IMG/VR virus record: IMGVR_UViG_3300030098_001818
Location: 1 to 37,154 of that record
Source: a virus
DNA: 37,154 bases
Reading direction: 5' to 3' (one strand)
The first letter of the stretch is position 1. Every line of letters starts with the position of its first letter. The notes below the pieces were generated by a model. That model had not been told where the DNA came from, did no database searches, and worked only from the letters and a program-made list of their open reading frames with translations. Shown here piece by piece: positions 5,510 through 37,052 of the stretch. Both the position numbers and the translations under genes were made by a program.

Positions 5510-6022
5510 ATGAGTTTAGAAATAATAGAAAAAAAGAATTATACCGAAGTGTGGATGTGGAGGAGTACATTCAAAACAATGTATAAAGCTAAAGATTCAA
5601 TATGGCTAGATAAAGGAGACAGGATTCACATTCCAACAGGCAGTTTTAGATACAAAAAATATATTGCTTACAATGAGGAACAATTAATTAGAAAATCAAG
5701 TATCAAAACAATTTATGGATCTAATAAACCAATAAATGGATTATTGTCAGAAATGGATAACCAAAAAGAATACTATGCTTTAGATACATTGTTTGATATG
5801 GAGCATGAACTTGGATTATATCCTTGTAATGCTAGTGATTACGAATGGGGTAGAGATAAATGTTATGGGTTAAGATTTAGCGTTAAAAATTTAATTGGTT
5901 TTACAGAAATATCAGATGGAAGTATTTGTCCGATATGTGATGAACGATATATTTGGGGTCATGGAGATTTTTTTCCTGATAAAGAATATTTAGAAGAAAG
6001 AATGGTTGATAAGAATTTGTAG
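5510..6022 (+). CDS. hypothetical early protein with CPIC motif
   Basis: The gene encodes 170 residues. The ATG follows GGAGG by 10 nt and a perfect-consensus promoter. The sequence is rich in Tyr, Trp and charged residues: an N-terminal strand-rich part (YTEVWMWRSTFKTMYKAKDS), a middle helical segment, and a C-terminal C-P-I-C pair in SICPICDERYIWGHGD, possibly half of a metal site with nearby Cys/His. I recognise no family. Its isolated position, own strong promoter and early-type leader suggest an immediate-early host-interaction gene. It converges on the late operon, with only 7 nt between stop codons. Confidence 0.7.
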   Translation: MSLEIIEKKNYTEVWMWRSTFKTMYKAKDSIWLDKGDRIHIPTGSFRYKKYIAYNEEQLIRKSSIKTIYGSNKPINGLLSEMDNQKEYYALDTLFDMEHELGLYPCNASDYEWGRDKCYGLRFSVKNLIGFTEISDGSICPICDERYIWGHGDFFPDKEYLEERMVDKNL

Positions 6023-6040
6023 TTAGGCCCTACATCCTAA
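6018..6040. terminator. weak bidirectional hairpin between convergent genes
   Basis: TTAGG (6,023-6,027) and CCTAA (6,036-6,040) form an inverted pair, and TGTAG/CTACA near 6,018-6,034 offers an alternative pairing. They lie exactly between two convergent stop codons. Stems are short and there is no clear T run, so termination here is only suggested. Confidence 0.25.
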
Positions 6041-6185
6041 AATCAAATTGATAAAACTTCTTTCGTTCTATTGTCTTCTCTTTGCATACTGGACACCTTT
6101 GGATTCTTTCTTCATAGTTAGTGATAACCTCAAAGGTATCTTGGCTGCACTTATCATTTTTACAGATGTAGTCGTAGAGTGGCAT
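6030..6185 (-). CDS. FmdB-like zinc-ribbon protein
   Basis: The gene encodes 51 residues starting MPLYDYIC. The start at 6,185 overlaps the previous stop by one base (TAATG). Cysteines at 8, 13, 31 and 34 (the last two in CPVC) form a four-Cys ribbon. The MPLYDY-C opening is characteristic of the FmdB/putative regulatory zinc-ribbon family found in bacteria and phages. Function is not established. This is the last gene of the leftward late operon. Confidence 0.65.
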   Translation of the reverse strand: MPLYDYICKNDKCSQDTFEVITNYEERIQRCPVCKEKTIERKKFYQFDFRM

Positions 6186-7255
6186 TACTGAGTTGCAGGT
6201 TCGGTTAATAAGACTTCGATGTTGTCTGACACTTCCCAAAGAGTTGCGTTTGTTGTTGTAGCAACTACAAATTCTTTAGTGGCAAAGTTTTGATCATGAC
6301 CAAAAGTTCCGTACTGAATAGTAAGTAAGCCTAAATTTAGATTCTTAAGATCGCAAGTTCCACTTTTCGTAACAATGTTAGAAAGAATTAGTTTGTTTAC
6401 TTTAGGTGTTGTTGTTGCAGTATCAGTATCAAGCCACAGTCGGTCAAATCTAGATCCAGTCGTAATTAATTCTTTAGCCATATCGTAACCACCTGATATT
6501 CTCAAATCACGCTGAGTACCTGCTGTTTGAGCAATAGACTGACCATCACTTATATTGTCCTTGATCACTATCTTGTGTGCCTTGACATTGGATACATTTA
6601 AAGATTTGCAAGTTACTCTATCAAACATGAGTTCTCCTATATCAATTCCGACTGTCTTGCCGTCAATCAATAAAGCTTCTGTCTTGCCACTAGGTAGTGT
6701 TGAATTAGTGTAGTTATTGATAGACACATCTGTTATGGAGATTGTCTCAACTGCTGTTTTACCTACAACAATTCTTAATGTGTTGTCTGAGGGATTGTCT
6801 TTCCTCCATGCCATTCTTTTCTCAAGTTCTTCATCAGGAAACTCTGATGGAGCTGAATAAACTCCTGCATCACCATTTGCAAAACTTCTTTCTTGTATAA
6901 TCTCATTTGCTACCACTCCAGTTGTAACAGTACCACCAGCGATAAGAAGGCCTGAAGCCATAGCTGGATTGAAACCCAGCTTTAAAAGAATATTATATGG
7001 ACTTGCAACAACTTGAAAAAACCTGTGCCACTTCTTACTTTCAGCATCAAGATAATCTACCTTAGCCATCACATAGTCTCTAATGATCAGACCTTTCTTG
7101 TAGGCTTGTATTGAAAGTAAAACTGGAAAATATAGGATAGAAAATATCATCCTTTTAAATGCTTTTGCAATCTCAAAGAAGAATCTTCCGAAACCTTTTA
7201 CAACTTTTACAGGTATTCCTGCTATGGTCTTGATTGTTTTTATTATCTTTTTCAT
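6185..7255 (-). CDS. membrane-anchored protein with beta-rich C-terminal domain
   Basis: The gene encodes 356 residues. The start at 7,255 is preferred to a longer reading because its ATG overlaps the stop of the small upstream gene (ATGA). The N-terminus is basic and amphipathic (MKKIIKTIKTIAG, KAFKRMIFSILYF). Hydrophobic segments lie around 35-55 and 95-115 (ASGLLIAGGTVTTGVVA). From about 140 onward the sequence is strand-rich with repeated Asn/Val/Thr patterns (LNVSNVKAHKIVI, NKLILSNIV, CDLKNLNLGLLTI), suggesting a solenoid. It could be a virion protein that inserts into membrane, or part of the lysis or superinfection machinery. I recognise no family. Confidence 0.65.
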   Translation of the reverse strand: MKKIIKTIKTIAGIPVKVVKGFGRFFFEIAKAFKRMIFSILYFPVLLSIQAYKKGLIIRDYVMAKVDYLDAESKKWHRFFQVVASPYNILLKLGFNPAMASGLLIAGGTVTTGVVANEIIQERSFANGDAGVYSAPSEFPDEELEKRMAWRKDNPSDNTLRIVVGKTAVETISITDVSINNYTNSTLPSGKTEALLIDGKTVGIDIGELMFDRVTCKSLNVSNVKAHKIVIKDNISDGQSIAQTAGTQRDLRISGGYDMAKELITTGSRFDRLWLDTDTATTTPKVNKLILSNIVTKSGTCDLKNLNLGLLTIQYGTFGHDQNFATKEFVVATTTNATLWEVSDNIEVLLTEPATQ

Positions 7256-7353
7256 CTTGAATATATTTCTCCAATCACAATTATTGCTGCAAGGCATACA
7301 CCTAGACCAACAACTGTGGCTGCTATTTCTTTTTTTACTTTCTTCCTACTCAC
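7252..7353 (-). CDS. 33-residue single-span membrane protein (GTG start)
   Basis: A GTG start overlaps the upstream stop (GTGA), and the stop overlaps the next start (ATGA), so it sits in a three-gene translationally coupled chain. A basic N-terminus (SRKKVKKE) is followed by one 18-residue hydrophobic helix (AATVVGLGVCLAAIIVIG) and a short tail. Size and topology fit a holin-like or other small membrane protein. The exact coupling on both sides is the main evidence that it is real. Confidence 0.55.
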   Translation of the reverse strand: MSRKKVKKEIAATVVGLGVCLAAIIVIGEIYSR

Positions 7354-7505
7354 TCTTCTGATTCTAACACTTTAAATCCCAATCCTATAATTCCGCCTAC
7401 ACATCCTGTAGCAATTTCGTTGTACTCATAAACTATACCTAGGCATGACAATATACCTAGAACAATGATTGCTAGAAAAATCTGTGGTCTTAGTTTACCC
7501 ATCAT
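7350..7505 (-). CDS. small membrane protein, holin candidate
   Basis: The gene encodes 51 residues from 7,505, or 50 from the next codon, which is also ATG. GGAGG stands 6-7 nt before. Two hydrophobic stretches (IFLAIIVLGILSCLGIVY and ATGCVGGIIGLGF) are separated by a short polar turn, and the tail is acidic (LESEE). Two close membrane segments with a charged tail fit a class II holin-like protein. No endolysin is identified nearby, so the lysis role is tentative. It overlaps the Dam-type gene upstream and the 33-residue gene downstream. Confidence 0.55.
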   Translation of the reverse strand: MMGKLRPQIFLAIIVLGILSCLGIVYEYNEIATGCVGGIIGLGFKVLESEE

Positions 7506-8010
7506 TTGTTTCCTCCATTTTGTATATGTACCCATATTTGCTAAATACTTTCTTAAATTTATTTAAATTGTTTCCTAAATACACAATAGCAGATTGAAAT
7601 GGTGCAGCACCCTTTTGATTGCCAAACTTCATTCTTTTGTTTATTGCTACCCAAGGATATTTTGCTACGGATTTCCACCATTTTGTTGAAACATCTAATT
7701 TTATTAACATAACTATTTCATCTGCATTTCCATTTTCATACTGACGAACAGCATAATCTATCCACAGTTTACTTTGACTATAAGGGTGATTCATGAAAAC
7801 CTTTCCGTGCCAATCATAAGATAAACCATTTAGTTCTTCTGTAAGATGATTTAATGCTGGTATGTTAGGATTGTTAATATCGTTAGAACAAGGGTCAAGA
7901 TCTATAATGTCAAAAAACTTTACAAGATCATCTACAAACTCTTTAGGAGTATTCCATGTATCTTTACGATTCCCTGTTGTTGCAGTTAAAACTTGCAAAG
8001 ATGTTGTCAT
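7495..8010 (-). CDS. phage Dam-type DNA N6-adenine methyltransferase
   Basis: The gene encodes 171 residues, the usual size for the phage DNA_N-6-adenine-methyltransferase family. Seen motifs are DTWNTPKEFVDDL (18-30), LDPCSN (38-43), and the segment RMKFGNQKGAAPFQSAIVYLG near the C-terminus, whose APF-SAIVY pattern is family-typical. The catalytic tetrapeptide is NHPY (74-77) where NPPY or DPPY is usual. Whether His is tolerated there is unknown to me. This is a second methylase, of a different type from the one at 3,012. It lies among late genes and overlaps its upstream neighbour (TCATT, i.e. ATGA). Confidence 0.8.
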   Translation of the reverse strand: MTTSLQVLTATTGNRKDTWNTPKEFVDDLVKFFDIIDLDPCSNDINNPNIPALNHLTEELNGLSYDWHGKVFMNHPYSQSKLWIDYAVRQYENGNADEIVMLIKLDVSTKWWKSVAKYPWVAINKRMKFGNQKGAAPFQSAIVYLGNNLNKFKKVFSKYGYIYKMEETNDG

Positions 8011-32355: not shown

Positions 32356-32385
32356 TTGACTTTTAATATTTCTATCAATTAATAT
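32356..32385 (+). promoter_or_regulatory. early promoter
   Basis: TTGACT (32,356-32,361), an 18-bp spacer and TAATAT (32,380-32,385). It lies about 47 nt before the first early gene. The -10 runs into TGGATT, part of the ATGGATT sequence also seen at the other early promoters. The region is AT-rich, so the -10 is less certain than the -35. Confidence 0.5.
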
Positions 32386-32431: not shown

Positions 32432-32662
32432 ATGAAAAAAGTTAAAATAAATAAATCTGATATCACTTACAAGAATTTAAAGAAGCGTTTCAATGCAGCT
32501 TCTCAAGATGAATTACTAATTAATCTGTGGGAACAGTTCAGAAGATTGCAAGCAATTACAGAAACTTGCGGCTTCTGTACAGACAATATTATTTATACTA
32601 AAAATATCGCATATGAAGATATTAAGAATGTATGTGAAAACAACAATTTTAATAATTCATAA
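32432..32662 (+). CDS. first early protein, unknown function
   Basis: The gene encodes 76 residues. The ATG follows AAGAAGGTTAAAAA, a weaker form of the leader used by the genes after it. The protein is charged, with a helix around NLWEQFRRLQAITETCGF and two cysteines five residues apart (CGFCTD), then a third further on (VCENN). First place behind the early promoter suggests a host-takeover factor. No family recognised. A type III hammerhead begins 9 nt after its stop. Confidence 0.65.
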   Translation: MKKVKINKSDITYKNLKKRFNAASQDELLINLWEQFRRLQAITETCGFCTDNIIYTKNIAYEDIKNVCENNNFNNS

Positions 32663-32670
32663 AATGGAGG

Positions 32671-32726
32671 TGCTAGGTTGGATAATGTGTATTATCCCTG
32701 ATGATTCGGAAACGATGAAACCAGCA
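32671..32726 (+). ncRNA. hammerhead ribozyme 1 (type III)
   Basis: Stem III is TGCT(A)GG (32,671-32,677) with CCAGCA (32,721-32,726), one bulged A, closed by U32678-A32720. The cleavage triplet GUU ends at 32,679, so cleavage falls between 32,679 and 32,680. Stem I is GGATAAT/ATTATCC (32,680-32,697) with loop GTGT. The core CTGATGA is 32,698-32,704. Stem II is three pairs capped by a GAAA tetraloop (32,705-32,716) with a U-U mismatch at the 10.1/11.1 position. The core GAAA is 32,717-32,720. All invariant core bases are present. Cleavage would leave nearly the whole ribozyme on the downstream mRNA's 5' end. Confidence 0.82.
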
Positions 32727-32757
32727 GCAAACAAACAATTTCATGGAGGTAAAAAAC

Positions 32758-33081
32758 ATGGAAAACAATAAAAAAGAAAACAACATTTTGCTTGATAGCA
32801 GCGGGGATTTATTCGGTTTAAAACCTGATGATGTTTTTAATGCTCATTCTGAAAACTTAAATGTAATGAGGTTTAGAATTGACAACCCAAGAAGAGTAGA
32901 ATTATCACAAGCAAGATATCATACAGATTTTGAAGTATTCATTTCTGATGACACTGAGCAACTAGAAAAACTTATTAAGTGGGCTCAGACTTTGCAAAAA
33001 GGGGCTAAGAAACACCTTAAGAAATTAAATAAAAAACTTGAGCAGCAAAAAAAACTTGAAGAGTTTGAAGCAAAATTATAG
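32758..33081 (+). CDS. early protein with C-terminal coiled coil, unknown function
   Basis: The gene encodes 107 residues. The start at 32,758 follows TGGAGGTAAAAAAC. An in-frame ATG at 32,743 lies in the Shine-Dalgarno itself and is unlikely. The N-terminal half contains LLDSSGDLFGLKPDDVFNAH, and a strand region follows (MRFRIDNPRRVELSQARYHT). The C-terminus is a basic-acidic coiled coil (LKKLNKKLEQQKKLEEFEAK). It is not recognised. It sits between ribozymes 1 and 2, whose second stem I begins at the last base of its stop codon. Confidence 0.65.
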   Translation: MENNKKENNILLDSSGDLFGLKPDDVFNAHSENLNVMRFRIDNPRRVELSQARYHTDFEVFISDDTEQLEKLIKWAQTLQKGAKKHLKKLNKKLEQQKKLEEFEAKL

Positions 33082-33139
33082 TGTTTCTGATGAGGTTTTA
33101 ATAACTGAAATAGCCCGATTTTTTCGGGCTATAAAACAC
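33081..33139 (+). ncRNA. hammerhead ribozyme 2 (type I)
   Basis: Stem I is GTGTTT (33,081-33,086) with AAACAC (33,134-33,139), six perfect pairs. The core CTGATGA is 33,087-33,093. Stem II is GGTT/AACT (33,094-33,106), closed by a G-U pair. The core GAAA is 33,107-33,110. Stem III is TAGCCCGA/TCGGGCTA (33,111-33,118 and 33,124-33,131) with a T loop, closed by A33110-U33132. The cleavage triplet is AUA, so cleavage falls between 33,133 and 33,134. It starts on the last base of the upstream stop codon. Cleavage would place ACAAACAATTT at the new 5' end of the next mRNA. Confidence 0.85.
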
Positions 33140-33170
33140 AAACAATTTATAAAAAATGGAGGTTAAAAAA

Positions 33171-33245
33171 ATGGATAATGAAATAATAAAAATCATTACT
33201 AGCCCGACTGAATCGGACTTAATTAACGAAATACTTTACAAATAA
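33171..33245 (+). CDS. 24-residue early microprotein
   Basis: ATG follows GGAGGTTAAAAAA, the strong leader, and opens MDNEIIKIITSPTESDLINE ending ILYK. It has a good ribosome-binding site and lies between ribozyme 2 and a promoter. Its last codons overlap the -35 box of the next promoter. It may be a true microprotein or a leader peptide. Nothing matches it that I know. Confidence 0.45.
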   Translation: MDNEIIKIITSPTESDLINEILYK

Positions 33246-33268
33246 TTAAATGGATTGGTATAATCCAT
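33235..33268 (+). promoter_or_regulatory. early promoter with palindromic -10
   Basis: TTTACA (33,235-33,240), an 18-bp spacer and TATAAT (33,259-33,264). The -10 lies inside the perfect palindrome ATGGATT-ggtat-AATCCAT (33,250-33,268), an obvious operator position. The leader motif follows directly. Confidence 0.5.
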
Positions 33269-33300
33269 AAATGCAAACAATTTCATGGAGGTTAAAAATC

Positions 33301-33975
33301 ATGAACACACAAGAAAAAATATACGAAATGCTTACAGAGTCAACAGGAACCCACTTTTTAGATAGTGGCGGCTCAAATAATAGACACTGGCAGCAAAACC
33401 AAAAAAAGACACTTGAAGATTTTCAAAATGAAAAACATTTTCAAGTTGAAAAAAACGAATACGGCGACAATCAAGTTGAATGGTTATTAAATATTTCGTT
33501 GTTTCATCATCTAAGCGATTCCCTAACTTATGATGAACAAGAAACCCACAATTTAAATAGTTTCTTAGAATCTGAAGGGCTTGCTAGTGATATGGCTGGA
33601 ATTGATGAATATGTTGCATCTGGATATTGTTCAGGCGGTCAAGAATTAAAAACGATCAATTCATACAATGAAGAGTGCGATTTATCGCAAACTATTCAAT
33701 TTCATTATGTAGGCGATATTTACGAATCGGACACAATATATCTACAAATTCACGGCGGTGCGGATGTACGGGGCGGTTACACGGATATCGTAGCGTTTAA
33801 AGTTGATTGGGATTCGCTGCTAAATTGGTACTATTCAGAAGAGGATATTTTGGAGTTTTTCGTACCATGTTTAATATGCAACGATGAGAATTGTATAGAC
33901 AAGAACGGCACACACATAACAAACAACATGGTTACGGGCTTCGGATTACCAAATTTACAAACAATTAAAAACTAA
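33301..33975 (+). CDS. conserved early phage protein of unknown function
   Basis: The gene encodes 224 residues from the ATG at 33,301, which follows TGGAGGTTAAAAATC. A longer in-frame start at 33,271 lies in the leader and is rejected. The N-terminal pattern ESTGTHFLDSGGSNNRHWQQ and the later LQIHGGADVRGGYTDIVAFK are hallmarks of a phage protein family seen in many early regions, with no known function. A CLICNDENC segment near the C-terminus is a possible metal site. It is the largest protein of this early block. Its last codons overlap the next gene's leader motif. Confidence 0.75.
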   Translation: MNTQEKIYEMLTESTGTHFLDSGGSNNRHWQQNQKKTLEDFQNEKHFQVEKNEYGDNQVEWLLNISLFHHLSDSLTYDEQETHNLNSFLESEGLASDMAGIDEYVASGYCSGGQELKTINSYNEECDLSQTIQFHYVGDIYESDTIYLQIHGGADVRGGYTDIVAFKVDWDSLLNWYYSEEDILEFFVPCLICNDENCIDKNGTHITNNMVTGFGLPNLQTIKN

Positions 33976-33993
33976 TTCATGGAGGTTAAAAAC

Positions 33994-34287
33994 ATGAAAG
34001 TAATAATTAAAAATCCAACAGGTGAAAAAATAAAAAAACTTGTTGATGACGGAGTCCAAGTACATTGGGCAAATGAGAGATACATAGTAAAAAAAGACAC
34101 AATAGGCAACTACAATGTAATTGATGAATATAATCATAATTGTATTGGCTTGACAGATAAGACAGGGAATTTATTAAATACCAATCAAAATTATTTTTAT
34201 AGTGTTTATGACTATTTAATTACAAGTCATGAAAATAAAATGATGAAAAAATACGGATGTAATTTAAATTCCATAACATCTAAATAA
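33994..34287 (+). CDS. small early protein, unknown function
   Basis: The gene encodes 97 residues from 33,994 after TGGAGGTTAAAAAC. The first 15 nt of the longer reading belong to the leader. The sequence alternates strands and turns (MKVIIKNPTGEKIKKLVDDG, VHWANERYIVKKDTIGNYNV) with an aromatic helix near the end (YFYSVYDYLITSHENKMMKK). No family recognised. Ribozyme 3 lies 28 nt downstream. Confidence 0.65.
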   Translation: MKVIIKNPTGEKIKKLVDDGVQVHWANERYIVKKDTIGNYNVIDEYNHNCIGLTDKTGNLLNTNQNYFYSVYDYLITSHENKMMKKYGCNLNSITSK

Positions 34288-34315
34288 ATGCAGCTTAAAT
34301 GTAACGGGCTTTATA

Positions 34316-34372
34316 GTGTAACTGATGAAGGCTAATGCTAGAAACTCCCTGATATTTCAGGGAGTCTTACAC
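34316..34372 (+). ncRNA. hammerhead ribozyme 3 (type I)
   Basis: Stem I is GTGTAA (34,316-34,321) with TTACAC (34,367-34,372), six perfect pairs. The core CTGATGA is 34,322-34,328. Stem II is weak: GGC/GCT with one G-U pair and an A-A mismatch at 10.1/11.1 (34,329-34,340). The core GAAA is 34,341-34,344. Stem III is CTCCCTGA/TCAGGGAG (34,345-34,364), eight pairs around TATT, closed by A34344-U34365. The cleavage triplet is the classical GUC, so cleavage falls between 34,366 and 34,367. Stems I and III differ in sequence from ribozyme 2 but keep pairing. The preceding TTATAGTGT is shared with ribozyme 2. Confidence 0.83.
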
Positions 34373-34392
34373 AAACAATAAATGGAGGTCTT

Positions 34393-34608
34393 ATGACTAA
34401 AAAAAGTCAAATAACAATACCTGATTTAATTGCTCTTACTTGCGATATATCAGATGAGATTCTGAGGTTATCTTTTAAGGGTGATATAGATGAGGAACAT
34501 GAAAACGGCAGCGTATCTTACACAGATGCGGCTCAAGATGTTTTCAATCAAATAAATGATCGCATAGAGGGAGTTATTCTTACTTATATGCAAAAATTGG
34601 AGGATTAA
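34393..34608 (+). CDS. small acidic early protein
   Basis: The gene encodes 71 residues. The ATG follows TGGAGGTCTT just behind ribozyme 3. The protein is acidic and helical (ITIPDLIALTCDISDEILRL, AAQDVFNQINDRIEGVILTY). Possibly a small inhibitor or adaptor; no family recognised. The following gene starts 3 nt after its stop, with GGAGG inside its last codons. Confidence 0.65.
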   Translation: MTKKSQITIPDLIALTCDISDEILRLSFKGDIDEEHENGSVSYTDAAQDVFNQINDRIEGVILTYMQKLED

Positions 34609-36167: not shown

Positions 36168-36328
36168 TAGGAAGACACATACTATTCCCAGAAGAAATAT
36201 GGGAAGATTTAAAAGCAATAGCCAAGCTAACAGGTAATTCACCATCAGCTTTAGTAAGACAATTCGTTGTTGATGGGGTTACACGAACACTACACCATGC
36301 AAATAAGGAGGTAAAGAATGGCAAGTAA
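36164..36328 (+). CDS. ribbon-helix-helix small protein (allele B)
   Basis: The gene encodes 54 residues. GGAGGAACT precedes the ATG, which overlaps the previous stop. The strand RHILFPEE and the turn TGNSPSALVRQFV match the RHH pattern of the version at 643-795. The first 31 bases of the two genes are identical and they then diverge. It overlaps the annealing-protein gene by 11 nt exactly as in the other version. Confidence 0.6.
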   Translation: MIGRHILFPEEIWEDLKAIAKLTGNSPSALVRQFVVDGVTRTLHHANKEVKNGK

Positions 36329-37052
36329 AGATATACATCCAGAAGATTTAGGAGAATTTATAGTTGAAAGTAAATTACAACGATCTAACAAGCTAAAAAA
36401 CTCAATGAAAGAAGGAGTTGACTTTGGCAAGATTGAGGGCAAAACATCAGATTTCCTTTGGGTAGGTGGTGCAGCAAAGTTAGCAGAAGAGTTTGGGCTT
36501 AACGCAACACTAAAAGAAATCAACGAAGAGCCGTTTGGTGAAGGTTGCAAGATTACAATTATATTGGACATCGTTGAGTCTGATGGAAAGGTTGTAGGTA
36601 CGGGAGTTGGTACTTGGGATAATGGAGAGATACTTGGCAACATGAAAGGTGCTAGGCAAAGAGGATTGGCTATGGCATACAAGAGGGCTTATGTCTTGGG
36701 TATTAGGTATGCAAGCAATAGCTTTGGTATCTTTAGTCAGGATGATGATGTTGTAAGGTATGCAGACGAACCACAACAACAATCTGAATGGAAACCAAAT
36801 CAGATTCAAGAACAACCAAAAAGACAATACGATCCTGATGCACCATTTACACCATGTAAAGAGGATGAAAATGGAGTTTGGAAAGTTGTAATTGGTGGTA
36901 AAGAGGGAACACCCTGGTCTGAATACAAAGGTAAAGAACTTATAGATGTTGTTAAGAATGATGTTGGTTGGGCAAATTGGGTATTGGCTAGACCAAACTT
37001 AGATTCATCTTGTAGAGAAGCCATTGAAAATGCAGCCACAGGTAAGCTCTAA
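36318..37052 (+). CDS. putative single-strand annealing / ssDNA-binding protein (allele B)
   Basis: The gene encodes 244 residues. It has the same architecture as the protein at 785-1,537: a helix (VGGAAKLAEEFG), strands (CKITIILDI-DGK-VGTGVGTWD), a basic helix (RGLAMAYKRAYVLGIRYASN), FSQDDDV, a Gln-rich linker and the C-terminal ExoX-like module (YKGKELIDVVKND-GWANW). Identity to the first version is high in the first 17 residues and in the C-terminal module, and lower between. The linker is unrelated. The last base overlaps the initiator start (TAATG). Confidence 0.65.
   Translation: MASKDIHPEDLGEFIVESKLQRSNKLKNSMKEGVDFGKIEGKTSDFLWVGGAAKLAEEFGLNATLKEINEEPFGEGCKITIILDIVESDGKVVGTGVGTWDNGEILGNMKGARQRGLAMAYKRAYVLGIRYASNSFGIFSQDDDVVRYADEPQQQSEWKPNQIQEQPKRQYDPDAPFTPCKEDENGVWKVVIGGKEGTPWSEYKGKELIDVVKNDVGWANWVLARPNLDSSCREAIENAATGKL

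Follow-up and report, generated by a model that had tools for sequence, protein, structure and literature searches.

The window is the whole stretch of DNA analysed here: 37,154 bases of an uncultivated phage, recorded in IMG/VR. A terminase is encoded on its minus strand; the plus strand carries small genes together with those for a replication initiator, a DnaC-like loader and a DNA methyltransferase. The plus-strand block described below begins with ORF A (32432–32662, 76 aa) and ORF B (32758–33081, 107 aa), both without a PHROG match. These are followed by ORF C (33171–33245, 24 aa), which is conserved in the viral contigs L038, L057, L067 and L125, ORF D (33301–33975), which matches phrog_11344 of unknown function, ORF E (33994–34287) and ORF F (34393–34608). 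Three hammerhead-like elements, HH1, HH2 and HH3, are found within 1.7 kb on the same strand, between co-directional genes: HH1 between ORFs A and B, HH2 between ORFs B and C, and HH3 between ORFs E and F. They would be carried by one transcript, as in a clustered array, with a predicted promoter between HH2 and HH3.

Megablast searches of phage records gave no match for 29–37 kb of the window, and tblastn gave none for its 642-aa protein. Two window proteins (36318–37052 and 785–1537) both match phrog_10048. In contig L087, the region matching phrog_10048 spans from one window end into the other; therefore, the record is probably circularly permuted or terminally joined.

Hammerhead ribozymes in the early gene block

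We searched both strands of the window with a descriptor requiring the core CTGANGA...GAAA, U16.1, H17 and paired stems. It matched exactly three times, at 32676–32722, 33081–33139 and 34316–34372. Shuffled windows gave 0.25 matches each, and none of 60 had a match as good as HH2 or HH3. We also used two covariance models, R1 (38 type I sequences) and R2 (35 type III sequences), built from phages unrelated to that of the window; their E-values are rough owing to a short calibration. R1 found HH3 (E=1.4e-9) and HH2 (E=4.2e-8) with no other match up to E=10, and R2 found HH1 (E=5.9e-15), its next-best match being at E=0.11. The three elements and cut points proposed in a sequence-only reading of this DNA were thus recovered, together with their cleavage triplets GUU, AUA and GUC, and covariance-model matches were obtained for all three (E from 6e-15 to 4e-8).

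HH1 (32672–32725, plus strand) has type III topology with an open stem III, and its predicted cut is at 32679/32680, after a GUU triplet with U17. Its CUGAUGA lies at 32698–32704 and its GAAA at 32717–32720. Stem I is GGAUAAU-GUGU-AUUAUCC, and stem II has a U-U mismatch at 10.1/11.1 followed by UCG-GAAA-CGA. Stem III (GCU-[A]-GGU/ACC-AGC) bulges A32675, so the earlier description of stems I and III as fully paired does not extend to stem III of HH1. HH2 (33081–33139, plus strand) has type I topology, and an ortholog of it is present in L057. Its predicted cut is at 33133/33134 (AUA triplet); stem I is GUGUUU/AAACAC, stem III has about 8–9 bp, and stem II is GGUU-UUAAU-AACU with a G-U wobble at 10.1. 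HH3 (34316–34372, plus strand), also of type I topology, has orthologs in L038, L067 and L125. It is predicted to be cut at 34366/34367 (GUC triplet), with GUGUAA/UUACAC as stem I, CUCCCUGA/UCAGGGAG as stem III, and a stem II in which an A-A mismatch at 10.1/11.1 precedes GGC-UAAU-GCU. The first base of HH2 is the last base of the ORF B TAG stop, and HH1 and HH3 begin 9 and 28 nt after the upstream stop, respectively.

All three elements have the hammerhead core (CUGANGA...GAAA, the A15.1-U16.1 pair and H17 at the cut) surrounded by three stems with covarying pairing. That the stems differ in sequence and still pair, as the sequence-only reading had proposed, was observed both between copies (stem I of HH2 versus HH3) and between relatives; the covariation count on our alignment A1 is partly circular because its rows had been selected by pairing. 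The Watson-Crick pair usually present at 10.1-11.1, most often G-C, is replaced by U-U in HH1, by A-A in HH3 and by the G-U wobble in HH2. Such a pair is usual in hammerheads and not strictly defining: hammerheads with U-U at this position were described in 2011 and are known to work (PMC3088659). For A-A, we found no report of activity in the openly searchable literature.

Rfam detected no hammerhead in the window, whether at the gathering score or with E-values allowed up to 10. This search had been proposed by the sequence-only reading as a check, and taken alone it would be a false negative. Canonical hammerheads of contig L012 also fall under the Rfam cut-offs (27.4 versus 34 bits and 30 versus 48.5 bits), so the threshold is not diagnostic for HH1–HH3. 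By sequence and predicted structure, HH1–HH3 are confirmed as genuine hammerhead ribozymes.

A leader shared with predicted promoters

Each hammerhead is followed by a leader of the form AAACAAT...TGGAGG. The leader after HH1 (32730–32757, AAACAAACAATTTCATGGAGG...) ends at the ORF B ATG at 32758, that after HH2 (33140–33170, AAACAATTTATAAAAAATGGAGG...) at the ORF C ATG at 33171, and that after HH3 (34373–34392, AAACAATAAATGGAGGTCTT) at the ORF F ATG at 34393, all on the plus strand. The common leader had been noticed in the sequence-only reading and is present at all three sites; it is not specific to ribozymes, since in the window and its relatives it also precedes hammerhead-free genes. In the window these are ORF D (leader at 33275–33300) and ORF E (33959–33993), both also on the plus strand. 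Translation from the AAACAAT leader therefore needs no ribozyme.

Predicted cuts of type I fall 6 nt before AAACAAT, and the leaders expected after cutting would be 37 nt for HH2 and 26 nt for HH3. The predicted cut in HH1 would leave a 78-nt leader retaining most of the ribozyme. The earlier idea that each gene receives its own short leader thus fits HH2 and HH3 and fails for HH1.

The promoters of the window are predictions from consensus matches. One of them (33235–33264, plus strand, TTTACA-18-(TG)TATAAT) has 11 of 12 consensus bases, and recurs with the same or nearly the same sequence in L038, L057, L067 and L125. Its expected start, at ~33271, lies a few nt 5' of the AAACAAT of ORF D, at a hammerhead-free junction. 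Sigma-70-like sites of this quality occur twice in 2.6 kb, against 0.13 expected. The predicted first promoter of the block (32356–32385, plus strand, TTGACT-18-TAATAT) has 9 of 12 consensus bases and is not significant alone; the position reads TTGACA in the relatives L057 and L087. It is followed by AACACATAAACAA, with the leader AACACATAAACAAGCC before ORF A. As the same leader follows both ribozymes and predicted promoters, we read the ribozymes as giving internal genes a promoter-type leader; they probably recreate such a 5' leader on these genes.

The motif ATGGATT/AATCCAT is present at each of the three predicted early promoters (32384, 33250–33268 and 34788), and is a possible operator. 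The copy at 33250–33268 is a full inverted repeat, altered on both sides in L067. In L087, a non-hammerhead hairpin (1968–2000, GGGGAGTACCTGCAAACAACTCCCC) occupies the corresponding place before the leader.

Hammerheads in relatives of the window phage

Contigs L038, L057, L067, L087 and L125 have genes and hammerheads in common with the window. HH1 and HH3 are 87–98% identical next to different genes. The gene after HH1 is ORF B in the window and L057 and a different gene in L038; HH3 is followed by three different genes, namely ORF F (window), ORF G (L038) and a gene encoding MKRIDIAL... (L067 and L125). Thus, ribozyme-leader units persist while their neighbours change. ORF C is preceded by HH2 in the window and in L057; in L038 a plain leader stands there, and L067 and L125 show neither. 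ORF C therefore does not require the ribozyme.

The HH1 ortholog of L038 and L057 carries the triplet GUC, and its stem II (GUUC-AAAA-GAAC) pairs perfectly, which is good evidence, at the level of sequence, that it has been retained as a ribozyme. The HH3 orthologs of L038, L067 and L125 have C-A at 10.1/11.1.

Hammerheads in other phage contigs

We performed two pattern scans of IMG/VR viral contigs, neither of which included the leader, and applied the descriptor to the matches. The first yielded at least 186 strong hammerheads in 990 kb and the second at least 201 in 1.03 Mb, which amounts to at least 387 in ~2 Mb, at least 308 of them distinct. The mirrored sequence of both scans contained no strong hammerhead by the descriptor. 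The scan patterns prescribed some of the stem sequence and, in the case of type III, also that of the loops; the loci are fragments, near-duplicates remain, and gene calls are simple. An earlier viral scan with the leader in its pattern gave mostly chance matches, biased toward the leader, and was excluded from the statistics. Five matches in genome contigs, considered as host-side hammerheads, were rejected by the descriptor or the model.

Among the matches listed, two or more hammerheads occurred at 46 of 100 hammerhead-bearing loci in scan 1 and 48 of 112 in scan 2, with a maximum of seven (L133), and no locus had hammerheads on both strands. A start codon lies within 40 nt downstream of ~92% of the 308 distinct hammerheads, among the matches listed, compared with ~30% of random positions. 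For the main type of each scan, the proportions among the matches listed were 92.5% and 93.1%, and the median distances from ribozyme to start were 19 nt for type I and 22 nt for type III. L012 has five hammerheads in 1.9 kb (5849–7748), all below the Rfam gathering scores; a leader of the GGAGAAAA type comes shortly after each one.

Features outside the core are also conserved. In type I, among the matches listed, an A precedes the 6-bp stem I in 91% and AA follows it in 87% and 78%, and a UNNNU-like loop II is conserved. HH2 and HH3 share these flanks of a 6-bp stem I as well as the UNNNU-like loop II. The listed type III matches have a conserved GUGU loop I with an AAAA or GAAA loop II, a combination favoured by the scan pattern. 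The conserved loops of type III, and the flanks and loop II of type I, would suit a peripheral contact of loop II with loop I or stem I.

The pairs at 10.1/11.1 among the listed matches were, for type I in scan 1, 148 G-C and 13 others, with no A-U, U-A or C-G, and for type III in scan 2, 66 G-C, 56 U-U, five A-A, two G-U and one C-U. U-U thus accounts for 56 of the 130 distinct type III matches listed (43%). In the loci L126–L357, the position holds G-C or a non-Watson-Crick combination (U-U, A-A, C-A), and never another Watson-Crick pair. We rejected the mismatched position as the mark of a new class, U-U having been published in 2011 (PMC3088659); its frequency is what is added. In Bcep176, for which a variant has been listed (PMC3088659), neither the descriptor nor the model gave a match, so core variants escape such searches.

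Comparison with known hammerhead arrays

The sequence-only reading had taken the serial layout to be undescribed. This is contradicted by Perreault et al. 2011 (PMC3088659), who reported clustered prophage hammerheads in Clostridium scindens, Azorhizobium caulinodans and Agrobacterium tumefaciens and proposed that they process long phage RNAs. Three of the arrays cleave in vitro, and one does so in E. coli (PMC3088659). In both those arrays and the window, several hammerheads flank single genes or short gene blocks. Unlike the prophages, the window phage is uncultivated and has one leader common to ribozyme, promoter and plain junctions, and the present analysis has placement statistics on a large scale. 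In halovirus HF2, a mapped transcript 5' end lies within 3 nt of the hammerhead cut, and the hammerhead is 13 nt before a start codon (PMC3088659). The HHphage element of haloviruses HF1 and HF2 resembles those of the window in lying shortly upstream of an early-gene start (13 nt), and differs in being a single element of variant structure in an archaeal virus. A 2023 paper noted that ribozymes cluster near one another and near Mu-like phage genes for an unknown reason, and still described what hammerheads do in bacteria and phages as unknown (PMC10085705).

A search of named phages for hammerhead arrays found them only in Bruynoghevirus, namely in the Pseudomonas phages PaP3 (our L365; 45416–45468 and 44033–44113, both minus strand) and DL54 (L363; 44919–44971 and 43544–43624, both minus strand). 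As in the window, these phages have a type III hammerhead with U-U at 10.1/11.1 and a UGUG loop I, and a second site, of type I, in the early genes; both sites lie just before genes. The second site was found here by R1. The difference is that their type III ribozyme leaves almost no separate leader, touching the start codon in PaP3 and overlapping it in DL54. The stem II/loop II sequence of this type III ribozyme (AAAGGA/AAAAGGA) could act as a Shine-Dalgarno sequence once the RNA is cut.

Type III topology and a UGUG-like loop I are also found in the sTRSV hammerhead. The insulator RiboJ, an engineered hammerhead, sits between promoter and leader and gives a constant 5' end. RiboJ follows a promoter, whereas the ribozymes of the window are natural and follow an upstream gene.

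The serial layout in phages is already known from 2011; the search covered openly searchable papers, and later work may have been missed. The present analysis appears to add three things: how tightly, and on what scale, the hammerheads are placed; a leader that ribozyme junctions have in common with those of presumed promoters; and the presence of two sites in each of PaP3 and DL54.

Discussion

From sequence, structure, conservation and placement we infer, with a probability of about 0.78, that HH1–HH3 are active in this phage and would cut the early polycistronic RNA at gene boundaries, standing in for promoters. Self-cutting of the early RNA at these boundaries, as the sequence-only reading had it, is the best reading of the locus. 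Several observations support cutting: models from unrelated phages strongly match only HH1–HH3 in the window, the ribozymes are retained in relatives while neighbours change, and HH2 and HH3 have the conserved type I features outside the core. In the survey, the spacing to start codons is tight, a single strand is used at each locus and multiple sites are frequent. Cleavage of the prophage arrays in vitro and in E. coli and the HF2 transcript end (PMC3088659) are consistent with it. The stand-in role is supported by the shared AAACAAT leader and by the 11/12 promoter, whose start would lie near the same point of that leader. The case for activity is weakened by the short, bulged stem III and GUU site of HH1 and by the A-A mismatch of HH3.

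The cuts would be made during synthesis. At HH2 and HH3, cutting would leave stem III, a stable hairpin, at the 3' end of the upstream message, which would carry a 2',3'-cyclic phosphate. The downstream message would start with a 5'-OH, and its short leader (NNACAC-AAACAAT...TGGAGG) would be unstructured and similar to that started by the predicted promoters on genes A and D. Each ribozyme would thus replace a promoter, after transcription, in setting where the message of an internal gene begins. HH1 would do the same job, its downstream message retaining stem I as a 5' hairpin. Both new RNA ends would resist end-dependent RNases, and we infer that 5'-OH and terminal hairpins may protect the mRNA here. 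The likely benefit is that exchangeable small genes would be translated from one leader regardless of the upstream sequence, as with RiboJ.

An explanation that we consider rather unlikely is that cutting mainly controls expression, with cleavage competing against the terminating ribosome so that neighbouring genes are coupled or uncoupled by translation. A ribosome terminating at such sites would cover stem I and the core and could hinder folding. HH2 starts inside the ORF B stop codon. Among the matches listed (loci L126–L357), 141 distinct type I sites have a detectable upstream ORF, whose stop codon ends most often on the opening nucleotide of the hammerhead, within stem I (as UAA) or within CUGAUGA, with peaks at 0/+1, +6 and +10. 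However, the +6 peak is biased, as the stem I UAA belonged to the scan pattern, CUGAUGA itself always supplies UGA stops, and HH1 and HH3, lying 9 and 28 nt past the upstream stop, argue against coupling to the ribosome.

Less probable still is that the hammerhead-leader units are for the most part modules that move or recombine at the edges of cassettes, and that their cutting matters little to physiology. This would suit the HH1 and HH3 units, 87–98% identical beside different genes, and at least 211 near-identical hammerhead pairs (85% or more) on different contigs; both neighbours are non-homologous in 82 of these pairs, and a single neighbour is homologous in 55. Mobility alone, though, does not account for why the distance to the start codon is fixed, why one strand is used, why the stems covary and why bases in the loops and flanks are conserved. 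Moreover, among the homologous gene pairs listed, with crude gene calls, the upstream neighbour is non-homologous in 32% when both have a hammerhead, 76% when one has and 60% when none has. Hammerheads as preferred recombination breakpoints are likewise unsupported, since hammerhead junctions were not consistently more broken. That HH1–HH3 are chance look-alikes (terminators, attenuators, operators or other hairpins) is very improbable; the stems III are strong hairpins and Rfam is silent, but every core base is present and the models match strongly. A terminator reading was rejected because no U run follows the hairpins and a terminator scan did not include HH1–HH3.

Extending the cutting of RNA at gene boundaries to phages in general is tentative, and we put it at somewhat below even odds: hammerheads would set mRNA 5' ends between the stop codon and a ~20-nt leader, recreate the promoter leader, and be gated by the ribosome that ends the upstream gene. 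The tight placement of hundreds of distinct phage hammerheads at gene borders makes this a sharp and testable hypothesis on their role, and the cultured phages PaP3 and DL54, with two sites each, allow it to be tested in a laboratory system. Annotation at Rfam thresholds misses these hammerheads, and phage transcript maps may therefore take ribozyme cuts for transcription starts. If the hypothesis is true, hammerheads would be natural insulators, and phages could exchange genes without retuning translation.
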